Source: Pseudomonadota bacterium
Lineage (GTDB): Bacteria > Pseudomonadota > Alphaproteobacteria > Rhodospirillales > Magnetospirillaceae
Assembly: GCA_021847015.1 (NCBI GenBank)
Contig: JAJZVW010000010.1
Coordinates: 1 to 64,000 of the forward strand
Reading direction: 5' to 3'
DNA length: 64,000 bases
Below, piece by piece: positions 16,577-50,070 of this stretch (within the stretch, counting starts at the first letter, position 1; every line of letters starts with the position of its first letter). The translations under genes and the position numbers were made by a program. The notes below the pieces were generated by a model. That model was not told where the DNA came from. It saw only the letters and a program-made list of their open reading frames with translations, and did not search any database.

Positions 16577-17049
16577 AAAATTGGTATCTCCGTGGCGCCG
16601 CCCGCGCCCCTGCAAGGGGCGCACAGCGGGAATGTGGCAAGGCGAAGCCGGCAGCGCCTGCGGGCGATGGGTCGGTCGATGCGATGGTGATCGGCACGAT
16701 CATTGCGACAACCTAGGGGCGGTTCAGCCGGTTTCGAAAAGGTCTGGGTAGCCGGCAGTACGGAGGCGCGGCGCTTGCTCGATCCCATCGCGCGCCCCAG
16801 GTGCGCGAGGAAGGACACCGCCGCCCGGGAAAGGACGCTCCGCTCTCCCGAACTCATGAACTGTCACCATAACGGTAGCCGAAAGTTTCGACAACGATCT
16901 TGTTGCGTCCCAAAGGGGTGATGCGCAACGGCAGGGAGGAGTGAAAGGGAGGGTGCCGGAAGAGTCTGCCGAATCAATGCCTTTCGGGTTGAGCCTCGAA
17001 TTGTCAGGCGCTATAGGTGTTAACACTCGCTCAAGGCTGGTGCGCGAGA
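16577..17049. promoter_or_regulatory. Divergent rne / amiC intergenic region
   Basis: A gap of 473 bases with no convincing gene. It holds the long rne leader (candidate promoter at 16866-16894) and the upstream region of amiC. No clear amiC promoter could be assigned. Confidence 0.5.
16866..16894 (-). promoter_or_regulatory. rne: Putative sigma-70 promoter for rne
   Basis: On the minus strand TTGTCG (16889-16894) and TATGGT (16866-16871) are separated by exactly 17 bases. This would give a 5' untranslated leader of about 280 bases before the rne ATG. A long leader used for autoregulation is known for enterobacterial rne; here it is inference. Confidence 0.4.
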
Positions 17050-18612
17050 ATGGGGGGCATGTTGCGGCGCCTTTCGATTCGTCTTCTGCTCGGCATTTTC
17101 GCCATCCTCGCCGTCCTCGCGCCTGGCGCGGGATGGGCGGACACGTCCGTGTCCGGCCTGCGCGTCGGCGAGCACCCCGATGGTGTCACCCGGTTCGTTC
17201 TCGATCTGTCGGAGGCCGCGGATTTCCGCATCCGGCTGTCGGACGATCCCTATCGGGTGATCATCGAGTCGGGGCATCTGGCCTGGATGACCGTCCCTGC
17301 GCTCAAGCGGCCGACCGGTGTGGTCGAGGGCGTCCGCTACAGCGAGGCGGGCGCCGCCGGGCGGATGGTGCTGGCCTTGCGACAGCCCGCCCGCGTCAAG
17401 CAGGCCTTCGTCCTCTCGCCTCGGGAGGGGGTGGGGTGGCGGTTTGTCCTGGACCTCAAGGAAGTGTCCCGGCAAGAGTTCCTGGCCGAGGCGGCCTCTC
17501 CTCCCCGGACGGTTACGGCCGTTGTGCCCGCGGATGCTGCGGGCCAGGCGTCGTTGCCGGCCGCCACGCCCGCGACCCCGCCCCCGCAACCGGCGAAGAT
17601 CGTGGTGACGTCACCCGCCGCAGCCCAGCCCCCCCCTCCGGAGGCGGCTCCTCTCTCCGTTCTGCAAGATAGAGTGTCGTCCGCCAGCGATTCTGCGCCG
17701 GCATCCACGCCTGAGATGGGCGTGCCGGCCGGTGAGCGGGGTGGCGAAGGGGGGGCGTTGCTGTCGGCGCCGATGCCTGCTCCCCAACCGCGGCCGGCGG
17801 CCACTCCGGCGGTCGCGGCAGGCGGGGCGTCGGTGGGGAGCCTGCCCTTGACAAAGGTGGCGGCTCCCGTGCCGGCACCGTCTCCCGAACCTAAGGCCAA
17901 GATGCCGAGGGGCGAGTATCGGCCGATGATCGTCATCGATCCCGGCCACGGCGGTGTTGATCCCGGTGCCATCGGAGTATCCGGAATCTACGAGAAGAAC
18001 ATCACCCTGGCCGTGGCGCGGGAATTGAGGCGGCGCCTCGAACGGACCGGGCGCTACCGCGTGCATCTCACGCGCGATGGCGATGTCTTCATCCCCTTGC
18101 ACGACCGTGTCGCCATCGCCCGGCAATACAAGGCGGACCTGTTCATCTCCCTGCATGCCGACGTGGTCAAGGACCCGCAGATTCGCGGACTCTCCGTATA
18201 CACCCTGTCGCAGACGGCTTCCGACACCGAGGCGCAGGCTCTCGCCGACAGTGAAAACAAGGTGGACCTGATCGCCGGAATTGACCTCAGCCATGAATCG
18301 GCGGATGTGGCCAACATCCTGATCGACCTGGCTCAGCGCGAAACCATGAACCGGTCCGCTGTCTTCGCCGGTGACCTGGTGGAGGAATTGGGGCGCGAAA
18401 TCTCGCTGCTGACCAACACCCATCGCTTCGCGGGGTTCGCCGTGTTGAAGGGGCCGGATGTGCCGGCGGTGCTGATCGAGACCGGCTACCTGTCCAACGA
18501 GAGCGAAGAGCGCAGTCTGCGCCAACCCGAATATCGCGGCAGGTTGGCTCGCGCCATAACGCGGGCGGTCGACCGGTTCTTCCAATCGGCCCAGAAGGGC
18601 AAACAGCCGTGA
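17050..18612 (+). CDS. amiC: N-acetylmuramoyl-L-alanine amidase with AMIN domain (AmiC type)
   Basis: Periplasmic zinc amidase that splits septal peptidoglycan during cell separation. A signal peptide of about 30 residues (basic LRRLSIR, hydrophobic core, cut near AGWA-DT) is followed by an AMIN domain (VSGLRVGEHPDGVTRFVLDL...) and a Pro/Ala-rich linker of about 110 residues. The amidase_3 domain (VIDPGHGGVDPGAIG...) has Zn ligands His in DPGHGG, Glu in GIYEKN and His in SLHAD, plus the catalytic Glu in LIETGYLSN. Starts at 17017 (GTG), 17050 or 17059 are possible; the signal peptide fits the last two. Upstream of mrcA in the same direction, but the palindromic element at 18657 intervenes. 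Confidence 0.93.
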   Translation: MGGMLRRLSIRLLLGIFAILAVLAPGAGWADTSVSGLRVGEHPDGVTRFVLDLSEAADFRIRLSDDPYRVIIESGHLAWMTVPALKRPTGVVEGVRYSEAGAAGRMVLALRQPARVKQAFVLSPREGVGWRFVLDLKEVSRQEFLAEAASPPRTVTAVVPADAAGQASLPAATPATPPPQPAKIVVTSPAAAQPPPPEAAPLSVLQDRVSSASDSAPASTPEMGVPAGERGGEGGALLSAPMPAPQPRPAATPAVAAGGASVGSLPLTKVAAPVPAPSPEPKAKMPRGEYRPMIVIDPGHGGVDPGAIGVSGIYEKNITLAVARELRRRLERTGRYRVHLTRDGDVFIPLHDRVAIARQYKADLFISLHADVVKDPQIRGLSVYTLSQTASDTEAQALADSENKVDLIAGIDLSHESADVANILIDLAQRETMNRSAVFAGDLVEELGREISLLTNTHRFAGFAVLKGPDVPAVLIETGYLSNESEERSLRQPEYRGRLARAITRAVDRFFQSAQKGKQP

Positions 18613-18647: not shown

Positions 18648-18809
18648 CTTTACCACCAGCGGTTCTCATTATGCATTTTTCGCTGTCATCCCGAGCCGAC
18701 GGCGAGGGATCTTTCCGGCACTTTCGCGTGAAAGATCCCTCAGTCGCTCCGCTCCCTCGGGATGACAACATGCCTTGATGCCGCATAATGAGAACCGCTG
18801 CTTTACCAC
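18648..18809. mobile_element. MITE-like element with 18-bp terminal repeats and 9-bp target duplication
   Basis: The element spans 18657-18800 (144 bp). Its ends are perfect 18-bp inverted repeats, CAGCGGTTCTCATTATGC at 18657-18674 and its complement at 18783-18800. Directly flanking them is the direct repeat CTTTACCAC at 18648-18656 and 18801-18809. Inside is a large palindrome with the same core as other repeats in the window. It encodes no protein, so it would need a transposase in trans. The 9-bp duplication shows genuine insertion between amiC and mrcA. Confidence 0.9.
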
Positions 18810-18899: not shown

Positions 18900-21446
18900 A
18901 TGCTCCGTTTTCTCGCGACTTTTTTCAGTTTCGTGTTCCTGCTCGCCGTGGCCGCCGCCGCCGGAGCGGTCTACGTCTTCTGGCACTATGGCCGCGGGTT
19001 GCCGGACTATCATCAGCTCGCGCATTACGAGCCGCCGGTGACGACGCGCGTCTATGGCGGCGACGGACGGCTGGTCGCTGAATATGCGAAGGAGAAGCGC
19101 ATATTCGTGCCGCTGACGGCCATTCCACAGCGGGTGAAGGATGCTTTCCTGGCGGCGGAGGACAAGGATTTCTATACCCATCCGGGCGTCGACCCGATGG
19201 GTGTTCTCCGCGCCATGGTCATTAATCTACGGAACAAGGGATTGGGCAGTGACCGCCGCCCGGTCGGCGCCTCCACCATTACCCAGCAGGTCGCCAAGAA
19301 CTTCCTTCTGACAAACGAAGTATCTCTAGAGCGGAAAATCAAGGAAGCCATCCTGGCTTTCCGCATCGAGCGCGCTTTCACGAAAGACCATATCCTTGAG
19401 CTCTATCTCAACGAGATTTATCTCGGGATGGGCAGTTACGGTGTCGCTGCCGCCGCTCTTGAGTACTTCGATAAGAGTCTGGATGACCTGACGACGGCGG
19501 AGGCCGCTTTCCTTGCGGCCCTGCCCAAAGGCCCCAACAACTACAACCCCAAGCTCCATCACCAGGCGGCCAAGGATCGCCGGGACTGGGTTATCGGCCG
19601 TCTCCTCGAAGATGGCAAGATTACCAGGGAAGAGTACGACGCGGCCATTGCCCAGCCCTTGGTGCTGCGCAAGCGCGACGAGACCCAGATGATCGTCGGC
19701 GCGGATTATTTTGCCGAGGATATCCGCCGCGAGCTTGCCGCCAAATACGGGGAGAGCGCCCTTTATGAGGGTGGCCTCGTAGTGCGCTCCACGGTGGACG
19801 CCGACTATCAGGCGTTGGCCTCGCGGGTGCTGCGCGATGGGCTGATGGCTTACGACCGCCGGCATGGTTGGCGCGGGCCCGTCACTCATATCGCCCCAGG
19901 GGTGGGCTGGCAGTCCCGCTTGGCCGCCGTACCGCTGCCGGCGGGGGCCGAGCCTTGGGAGTTGGCGATGGTCCTGTCCGAAACCGATCAGGCCGTTTCG
20001 GTGGGCTTGGCCGGCGGGCGGGTGGGAACCATTCCCTGGACCGAACTCGCCTGGGCGCGGCAATGGCTGCCCCACCAGCATTTCGGCCCGCCGCCGCGAA
20101 AGGCCGCGGACGTGGTCAGGCCGGGCGATGTGGTGCTGGTCGAACCGGTGACCGTCAACGCCGACAACAACCGTCCATATCCGGCGGGGACCTACGCCCT
20201 GCGGCAGATTCCCAAGGTGGAGGGCGCCCTGGTCGCGCTCGATCCCCACACGGGCCGCGTTTTGGCGATGGTCGGCGGCTGGTCCTACGACAAAAGCCAG
20301 TTCAATCGGGCCTCTCAGGCTATGCGGCAGCCGGGTTCCGCCTTCAAGCCGATGGTCTATCTGACCGCGCTCGAACACGGATATACGCCGTCTTCGCTGG
20401 TGCTCGACGCGCCGATCGCCCTGCCCCAGGGGCCCGGATTGCCGCTGTGGCGCCCCAAGAACTACGAGAACGATTTTCTCGGTCCGGCGACGCTGCGGGT
20501 GGGTGTGGAAAAGTCTCGCAACCTGATGACCGTGCGTCTGGCCCAGGCCATAGGCATGCCGGCGATCGCCAAGACGGCGGCGGATTTCGGGGTCTACGAC
20601 AATCTGCCCAACCAGTTGGCGATGGCGTTGGGTGCGGGCGAAACCACGCTGCTCAAGCTGACCACGGCCTATGGCGAGTTGGTCAATGGCGGGAAAAAGA
20701 TCACCGCGACCCTTATCGACCGCATCCAGGATCGTCAGGGACGGACCATCTACACCCACGACAAGCGCTTCTGCGACGGGTGTTGGCCGATGCAGTATAC
20801 CGGCCAAGACATGCCGCGCCTGCCGGATATCCGCGAGCAATTGGCCGATCCCGTTTCGGCCTACCAGATGGTCCACATCATGGAAGGTGTGGTGCAACGG
20901 GGCACCGGGCGGGTGGTGGCGTCGGTCGGCAAGCCCCTGGCTGGCAAGACCGGTACCTCCAACGACAGCTTCGACACATGGTTCGTCGGTTTTTCGCCCG
21001 ATCTGGCGGTCGGCGTGTTCGTGGGTTTCGACGAGCCGCAGACCTTGGGACACCACGAAACCGGCGGCATCGTCGCCGCGCCCATCTTCCGCGATTTCAT
21101 GAAAGTCGCGCTGGCCGGCAAGCCGCCTACGCCCTTCCGCGTCCCATCGGGCGTGCGGATGGTGCGCGTCGATCTGCACTCCGGCAAGCCCACCTCCCCG
21201 AGCGATCCCAACGCGATCTGGGAGGCGTTCAAGTCCGAGGACCGTCTGCCGGCCGACGACGAGGATGTCCTGGATGGCCAAGGCGCGGATTCGGCATTCA
21301 CGTTTACTCCCCTGACCGAAGGTGCGCCCGCCGACGGTCAGAGCCCGGCCGGCCCGCCGGTGCCCGAATCCCAAGGGGGGGGCGGCGTGCCCGGGGCTGC
21401 CCCGGCGACCGGTAACGCCGCCCCAATGCCCGGCGGGCTGTATTGA
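18900..21446 (+). CDS. mrcA: Penicillin-binding protein 1A (class A PBP)
   Basis: Inner-membrane-anchored bifunctional peptidoglycan synthase of 848 residues. An N-terminal membrane helix (residues 3-30) is followed by the GT51 glycosyltransferase domain with the catalytic Glu in AAEDKDFYTHPG (about residue 87), and RPVGASTITQQVAKNF. An OB-like insert precedes the transpeptidase domain, whose motifs are SAFK (about 480), SRN (about 539) and KTGTS (about 683). The C-terminal tail is Pro/Gly-rich and disordered. Length and order are standard for proteobacterial PBP1A. prfB follows after about 80 bases. Confidence 0.96.
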   Translation: MLRFLATFFSFVFLLAVAAAAGAVYVFWHYGRGLPDYHQLAHYEPPVTTRVYGGDGRLVAEYAKEKRIFVPLTAIPQRVKDAFLAAEDKDFYTHPGVDPMGVLRAMVINLRNKGLGSDRRPVGASTITQQVAKNFLLTNEVSLERKIKEAILAFRIERAFTKDHILELYLNEIYLGMGSYGVAAAALEYFDKSLDDLTTAEAAFLAALPKGPNNYNPKLHHQAAKDRRDWVIGRLLEDGKITREEYDAAIAQPLVLRKRDETQMIVGADYFAEDIRRELAAKYGESALYEGGLVVRSTVDADYQALASRVLRDGLMAYDRRHGWRGPVTHIAPGVGWQSRLAAVPLPAGAEPWELAMVLSETDQAVSVGLAGGRVGTIPWTELAWARQWLPHQHFGPPPRKAADVVRPGDVVLVEPVTVNADNNRPYPAGTYALRQIPKVEGALVALDPHTGRVLAMVGGWSYDKSQFNRASQAMRQPGSAFKPMVYLTALEHGYTPSSLVLDAPIALPQGPGLPLWRPKNYENDFLGPATLRVGVEKSRNLMTVRLAQAIGMPAIAKTAADFGVYDNLPNQLAMALGAGETTLLKLTTAYGELVNGGKKITATLIDRIQDRQGRTIYTHDKRFCDGCWPMQYTGQDMPRLPDIREQLADPVSAYQMVHIMEGVVQRGTGRVVASVGKPLAGKTGTSNDSFDTWFVGFSPDLAVGVFVGFDEPQTLGHHETGGIVAAPIFRDFMKVALAGKPPTPFRVPSGVRMVRVDLHSGKPTSPSDPNAIWEAFKSEDRLPADDEDVLDGQGADSAFTFTPLTEGAPADGQSPAGPPVPESQGGGGVPGAAPATGNAAPMPGGLY

Positions 21447-27015: not shown

Positions 27016-27423
27016 ATGGCTCTGAGCGCGAATAAAGTGTCCGCCGTCGCGGCGCCAGGGATGGCGGCTGCCGCGACGGCGCGACCGCTCTCGGGCGGAA
27101 GGGGCGTGGCGGCCGAGAACCAGTCTCCGGTGGAAGCTCCGGGGTTCGCGCAGCAAATCAGCGCCAACGACAACGCCATCCTCCGCTACGACGACCAGAA
27201 CGGCACCGGGTCAGGGGGCGGCCAGTACCGAAACCCCAATCCCGATCCATTCCTTAACCGTGCCGGCGTCGGATTCACCATCGAAGATACGAATTCGTCG
27301 GCGGCTGTCGGTAATTTTTCCCTGAGCGATCTGAGGCGGGTTGTCGGCATTTACGAATACAACGTGCGGATCACTTCGCCGGATACCGTCCGACCCGGCA
27401 GCGTACTCAATCGTCTGTACTGA
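27016..27423 (+). CDS. Hypothetical protein, 135 residues
   Basis: Not recognised. The N-terminal third is Ala/Gly-rich, the middle Gly/Asn/Pro-rich (GTGSGGGQYRNPNPDPF) and the C-terminus is more ordered (SLSDLRRVVGIYEYNVRI). There is no signal peptide or membrane helix. It is divergent from fliN, which could hint at a flagellar or surface link, but nothing in the sequence proves it. Codon bias is like the neighbours, supporting a real gene. Confidence 0.6.
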   Translation: MALSANKVSAVAAPGMAAAATARPLSGGRGVAAENQSPVEAPGFAQQISANDNAILRYDDQNGTGSGGGQYRNPNPDPFLNRAGVGFTIEDTNSSAAVGNFSLSDLRRVVGIYEYNVRITSPDTVRPGSVLNRLY

Positions 27424-27500
27424 GCGAAAGCGAAGGATCTTTCAGGCTCTTCGCGTGAAAGATGGCCTCCGCCCGCTTGCACGTGATCGGGATGGCGTCA
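27423..27500. repeat. Degenerate copy of the palindromic repeat core
   Basis: GGATCTTTCAGGCTCTTCGCGTGAAAGAT repeats the inner hairpin of the elements at 1-109 and 18657-18800 (landmarks GGATCTTTCAGG and GCGTGAAAGAT), then diverges. It has lost the outer arms. It begins at the stop codon of the 27016 gene. Confidence 0.6.
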
Positions 27501-27542
27501 CGCGTGGGCCGGGCTCATGGTGGGAACCTGGCCCGCGTGGCA

Positions 27543-43734: not shown

Positions 43735-43743
43735 TCGATTCTG

Positions 43744-43917
43744 TCGTCCCGAGCGCAGCCGAGGGACTTTTCACGCACGGTGCCTGAAAGGTTCCTCCGT
43801 CGCTTGCGCTCTCTCGGAACGACAAAAAATGGATTGTCGTCCCGAGCGCAGCCGAGGGACCTTTCACGCACGGTGCCTGAAAGGTTCCTCCGTCCTTGCG
43901 CTGTCTCGGAACGACAA
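43744..43917. repeat. Two tandem REP-like palindromes
   Basis: Two copies of about 84 bases, near 43744-43828 and 43834-43917, nearly identical (TGTCGTCCCGAGCGCAGCCG start, CTCGGAACGACAA end). Outer and inner inverted repeats resemble those of the elements at 1-109 and 18657-18800, but TGTCGTCCC/GGAACGACA replaces TCATCCCGAG and the 18-bp terminal repeats are absent. They may act as a terminator or mRNA stabiliser for the hydrogenase operon. Confidence 0.85.
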
Positions 43918-43925
43918 GATCATCC

Positions 43926-49982: not shown

Positions 49983-50070
49983 GCTTTGTCGTTCCGAGGG
50001 AGCTTTAGCGACGAGGAACCTTTCACGCACGGTGGGTGAAAGGTCCCTCGGCTTCGCTCGGGACGACAGA
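49983..50070. repeat. REP-like palindrome
   Basis: TTGTCGTTCCGAG on the left pairs with CTCGGGACGACAG on the right, enclosing CCTTTCACGCACGGTGGGTGAAAGG. Same subfamily as the two copies at 43744-43917. It directly follows pabC and may end its transcript. Confidence 0.8.

Follow-up and report, generated by a model that had tools for sequence, protein, structure and literature searches.

The 144-bp element and its locus

The window, i.e. the whole 64,000-nucleotide stretch that was analysed, is contig C31 of the surveyed 3.59-Mb draft genome (G000, 77 contigs). A short palindromic element is located there between an amidase gene, the stop codon of which lies ~45 bp upstream of the element, and a gene for a penicillin-binding protein, which starts 99 bp downstream. 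Both genes are transcribed in the same direction.

1-109, - strand: second copy of the element, truncated by the contig start; its end, at 92-109, is 88% identical
17017-18612, + strand: N-acetylmuramoyl-L-alanine amidase (Amidase_3) gene
18648-18656, + strand: left copy of the 9-bp target duplication, CTTTACCAC (repeat finding)
18657-18800, no strand assigned: whole non-autonomous element, MITE family 1, 144 bp
18657-18674, + strand: left terminal inverted repeat, CAGCGGTTCTCATTATGC, 18 bp
18683-18767 (element positions 27-111): REP-like palindromic core, two inverted TGTCATCCCGAG...GGGATC units, head-to-head
18684-18695 / 18756-18767: interior palindrome arms, pair 1
18704-18715 / 18730-18741: interior palindrome arms, pair 2
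18783-18800, - strand: right terminal inverted repeat, 18 bp
18801-18809, + strand: right copy of the 9-bp target duplication, CTTTACCAC (repeat finding)
18900-21446, + strand: PBP1A-family penicillin-binding protein gene

The initial annotation had placed 18-bp ends and a 9-bp duplication at 18648-18809, which is correct to the base for duplication, element and duplication together. The inverted ends are perfect over 18 bp, and the additional C with which a direct-repeat finder makes the CTTTACCAC duplication one base longer is due to chance. The element is small (144 bp, bacterial MITEs being ~50-600 bp long), has no ORF of its own, and folds at -82.6 kcal/mol compared to -41.4 +/- 3.6 for shuffled sequences (z = -11.3). 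An Rfam search returned a sub-threshold match to a microRNA family over the hairpin, which we regard as a chance hit.

Copy number, target duplications and a nested empty site

Within the window, the 18-bp end occurs three times with up to three mismatches, against 0.06 occurrences expected. The genome-wide count that the initial annotation had called for gave 103 + 103 = 206 matches at the same threshold and 0 + 0 for a reversed control pattern, so the occurrence of this 18-mer cannot be attributed to chance. Approximately 40 near-full-length copies are present in the genome, the majority of them 96-100% identical. The loci retrieved contained 56 end pairs, of which a few are cross-pairings of adjacent copies (lengths 214, 218, and 293), leaving ~53 real ones; the length is exactly 144 bp in 39 of the 56. 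The proposal of a transposon had been made on the understanding that other copies, too, would be flanked by duplications, and exact ones were indeed found at 36 of the 56 paired copies (9 bp in 34 and 10 bp in two), with a single mismatch at seven more. The family thus combines terminal inverted repeats, a duplication of constant length at most copies, and multiple dispersed copies (at least 50 paired), as is characteristic of MITEs.

Two subfamilies can be distinguished. The copies of the young subfamily (n = 35) have a mean pairwise difference of 1.6%, and 11 of them are identical to the consensus; the window copy deviates from it at a single one of the 144 positions, in agreement with the fairly recent insertion suggested earlier. 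The second subfamily is older and diverged (~82-85% identical), with ends in ...TATGG. The element at 18657-18800 is part of a recent MITE burst that affected ~100 places in this genome.

An internal empty site is provided by a young copy nested in an older one (C75:44122). When one 9-mer is removed, its flanks align continuously, and gapless across the join, with older copies that are intact, e.g. in L014; the two 9-mer copies of the target duplication, AAGATCCAT and AAAATCCAT, are one base apart. The empty-site comparison proposed for the window locus was made at this locus instead, with gapless rejoining and one mismatch between the duplication copies. Together with the copy number and the 9-bp duplications elsewhere, it bears out the earlier view of a non-autonomous transposon. 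Another copy (C40:46148) was rejected as an empty site, as it sits in a remnant of a second MITE family but the left arm is missing.

The interior of the element, ~100-130 bp in, is also the end point of many contigs of this assembly (e.g. C17, C18, C23, C24, C31, C36, C37, C40, C56, and C59). The fragmentation of the draft is in large part due to this MITE, and short-read assemblies are fragmented by the element. A 186-bp version with a larger hairpin loop (GCGCGTTCCGCGCC...GGCGGCGGAGCCGCC) and one mismatch in the target duplication is found at C48:70023-70208 (L103).

Candidate mobilising transposase and alternative origins

A full-length IS of 1.43 kb with matching ends is present in a genome of the same family (G021, L073:86-1518, target duplication CTACGGCAT). 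Its right end is CAGCGGTTCTCACTATGG and its left end, CAGCAATTCTAAATTTGG, is weaker; the 429-aa ORF between them encodes a DDE-type transposase with a weak match to DDE_Tnp_1. Transposases ~43% identical to this enzyme are found in ISs on cyanobacterial plasmids, where the three complete copies (Calothrix, Anabaena, and Nostoc) are bounded by near-perfect CAGCAATTCTCATTTTG ends and flanked by exact 9-bp duplications, and a copy from Gloeothece verrucosa (WP_013335080.1) with CAGCAATTCTCATTTTG ends is annotated as ISNCY. In these transposases, a conserved R-W-K-I-E-N-E stretch and DG and GD motifs look like the DDE triad. The IS group could be identified because the end sequence and the duplication length are common to it across phyla. 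The element has the CAGC(A/G)(A/G)TTCTCA end and the 9-bp duplication of this group; the conserved DDE transposase gene is lacking in the non-coding element, and searches of the assembly yielded no homologue. The ISNCY-annotated ISs are autonomous, 1.4-1.9 kb long, and encode transposases of ~430-465 aa, whereas the MITE shares their ends alone, which makes it a derivative and not a member of the group.

The search for a full-length IS with the same ends, also suggested by the initial annotation, was successful in the G021 relative and in the more distant plasmids, but not in this draft assembly. Neither a single sequence nor PF01609 nor profile A1 retrieved a transposase of the ISNCY-annotated group from the assembly, although positive controls were detected, and an end pattern with GG likewise gave no full-length IS; PF01609 is a weak probe that the Anabaena homologue escapes. 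All inspected CAGCGGTTCTCATTATGG ends in this genome run into a MITE, and none of those inspected runs into a full-length IS at a contig end, where such a case would remain visible. The ends are thus shared with autonomous ISs of relatives and cyanobacterial plasmids, with none found in this genome. The element is likely an orphan here, i.e. without its transposase, but the absence of the enzyme from the assembly is not proof, since the body of at least one further IS is missing from the 77-contig draft. A search of plasmid DNA with the element as query gave no match, the exact 18-mer had four single, unpaired matches in unrelated phyla in a wider collection of genome contigs, and literature searches on the end sequence, ISMae2, and ISNCY MITEs returned nothing relevant.

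We consider the element to be a MITE moved by the ISNCY-annotated IS group, with a probability of roughly 0.9. The sequence at 18657-18800 would be a short, non-coding DDE-type transposon that contributes its ends alone. A transposase of the group (ends CAGC(A/G)(A/G)TTCTCANT.TG, 9-bp duplications) would recognise the 18-bp ends, excise or copy the element, and join its ends to target DNA cut with a 9-bp stagger in the interval from the amidase to the PBP1A gene, where host repair would give rise to the CTTTACCAC duplication. The interior inverted pair of REP-like palindromes would be carried as a passenger. As the ends and the duplication length agree with those of full-length ISs, we infer the identity of the enzyme and its action in trans.

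A comparable case is MITEAba12 of Acinetobacter, which the available text of PMC6382973 describes as a 113-bp non-coding element with near-perfect ends and 9-bp duplications that is moved in trans by a co-resident IS. The element studied here is similarly short and non-coding and has 9-bp duplications; according to the same text, MITEAba12 differs in its ends of the GGCTTTGTTGC class and its AT-richness, and that text reports no REP-like core.

Two other origins appear far less probable. The element might be kept mainly as a functional hairpin that terminates transcription or stabilises mRNA in the interval from the amidase to the PBP1A gene, as its hairpin is very stable and 53 of 54 core-model matches are intergenic in an 841-kb sample of the genome (home-made gene caller, 83% coding). 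However, neither strand has a T-run after the hairpin, which argues against an intrinsic terminator, the gaps between convergent genes in the same sample show no enrichment, and the presence of near-identical copies next to genes unrelated to one another indicates a recent burst of transposition, making such a role quite improbable as the main reason for its presence. Slightly less probable still is an origin of the palindromes as ordinary REPs mobilised by a RAYT (a Y1 tyrosine transposase) of this genome, with the inverted ends being incidental. The genome does encode one RAYT (C48:82530-82853; L202:2701-3393, minus strand), which matches NCBIfam REP_Tyr_transpos with an E-value of 2.6e-20, just under the cut-off. 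A repeat mobilised as a RAYT-dependent REP or REPIN would adjoin this gene, but no copy of the palindrome lies within 6.5 kb around it, the only Y1_Tnp gene found. Moreover, 9-bp duplications flank most copies of the element, and Y1 transposases are not known to generate target duplications. The RAYT-like gene at L202:2701-3393 is itself flanked by repeated GTAACTTCC and TTAAGTATTGTGTCCCC motifs, which do not belong to the palindrome family.

The REP-like core inside and outside the shell

The interior palindromes share several features with the CGTC REPs (Di Nocera et al. 2013, PMC3733652), which are defined by a CGTC, TGTC, or CCTC tag, an 8-9-bp stem starting with A-T, and a tail that is mostly CCA, and which occur as head-to-head dimers. 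In the predicted fold of one unit, the core has an unpaired TGTC tag and a stem starting with A-T; its two inverted TGTC units form a head-to-head pair, and it is intergenic in an alphaproteobacterial-type host. In contrast to the 8-9-bp stem of CGTC REPs, the stem here is interrupted (5 bp, an internal loop, and 3 bp), the tail is CTTTC instead of CCA, and the core lies inside transposon ends. A count of CGTC/TGTC hairpins, made to look for enrichment of the tag, yielded only 9 and 5 matches. As the core fits the CGTC-REP definition only in part, we refer to it as REP-like and not as a member of that class.

Matches to the core model without family 1 ends fall into two groups, a second MITE family and cores without ends.

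C36:269967-270157; C70:83194-83384; C73:67861-68052; others: MITE family 2 copies
27422-27502, + strand (window): weaker REP-like core match, end-less
43741-43827, + strand (window): end-less REP-like core, tandem unit 1
43834-43920, + strand (window): end-less REP-like core, tandem unit 2, 82/86 identical to unit 1
49984-50069, - strand (window): end-less REP-like core

MITE family 2 is ~190-198 bp long and has C(A/G)GGGCTCCGAACTCAG ends and duplications of ~10 bp (e.g. TTAGTGGCCG at C36:269967 and TTGCCAAAGC at C70:83194), and its core is ~85% identical to that of the window element over the aligned positions. A chimera at C70:136586, with a left half from family 1 and a right half from family 2, provides direct evidence that recombination has taken place through the core; with the support of this one chimera, we infer that recombination led to the capture or exchange of cores. 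The earlier suggestion that REP-type repeats in this genome are linked to a mobile element thus holds, and cores of the same type occur both end-less and in the second MITE family.

The end-less cores could be old MITE copies with decayed CAGCGGTTCTCA ends, so that no separate REP population would exist. Copies with partly decayed ends are found (C73:66689 and C73:907, 15/18 at one end), but the core at C73:104093 retains 92% core identity although its flanks match the end at only 9/18 on both sides, equal to the null median of 9 for random intergenic DNA. Approximately 14 end-less cores are alike in that the similarity of their flanks to either end does not exceed that of random intergenic DNA. 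Some of the end-less cores are tandem units, as at 43741 and 43834, which are 82/86 identical to each other and separated by a spacer of 6 bases, and the core is also found within the second MITE shell. We therefore regard decay alone as unlikely and a separate population of end-less cores as probable.

Complete elements of the same end class with 9-bp duplications are also present in other genera, where their interiors differ. Those in G009 and G036 contain CCCTCTCCCGC palindromes, and those in G211 and G214 contain CCTCCCC...GGGGAGG palindromes. Three G214 copies (L238, L241, and L244), which are larger MITEs with CAGC(A/G)GTTCTCA ends, enclose a nested element that is bounded by GGCTATCYGATTCAC ends and has a core of the type CGTCATTGCGAG...GCAATCCA. 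The interiors in these relatives and the distribution of the core in the present genome indicate that one shell class can hold different palindromes and that one palindrome can occur in different shells. It is conceivable, though we advance this tentatively, that REP-like palindrome pairs of these bacteria are interchangeable cassettes without a transposase of their own that are spread by any DDE-transposase MITE shell into which they happen to fall and swapped between shells by recombination. CGTC REPs "apparently lack a dedicated transposase", and their mode of spread has been stated as open (PMC3733652); cassette exchange, if true, would account for this lack of a dedicated enzyme. A similar core is caught in two shells, alone, and in a shell chimera, all in one genome, and with an IS group named as the expected mover of one shell, a direct transposition test becomes possible.

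A MITE carrying a REP is already known, and the closest precedent is QMITE2 of Coxiella burnetii (PMC5896051), a 150-190-bp MITE with 7-11-nt direct repeats and a GTAG-type REP inside, the short end-less versions of which look like plain REPs and the REP of which is an IS insertion target. The element described here is likewise a MITE with a REP-like core, end-less versions, and an IS inserting in the core. It differs from QMITE2 in that its palindrome is TGTC-tagged, the IS group that shares its ends has been identified, and the core occurs in two MITE shells.

One and the same IS splits two MITE copies at the same core position (GGCGAG^) at C4:1-133 (L002/L192) and C11:1-133 (L013/L191), and the body of this IS is missing from the draft assembly. 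These interruptions resemble the targeting of REPs by IS1111 in Coxiella. A further MITE copy, at C26:48768 (L091:1001-2018), is split after ~59 bp; the element inserted there has a transposase-like ORF of 300 aa on the minus strand (L091:1058-1960).
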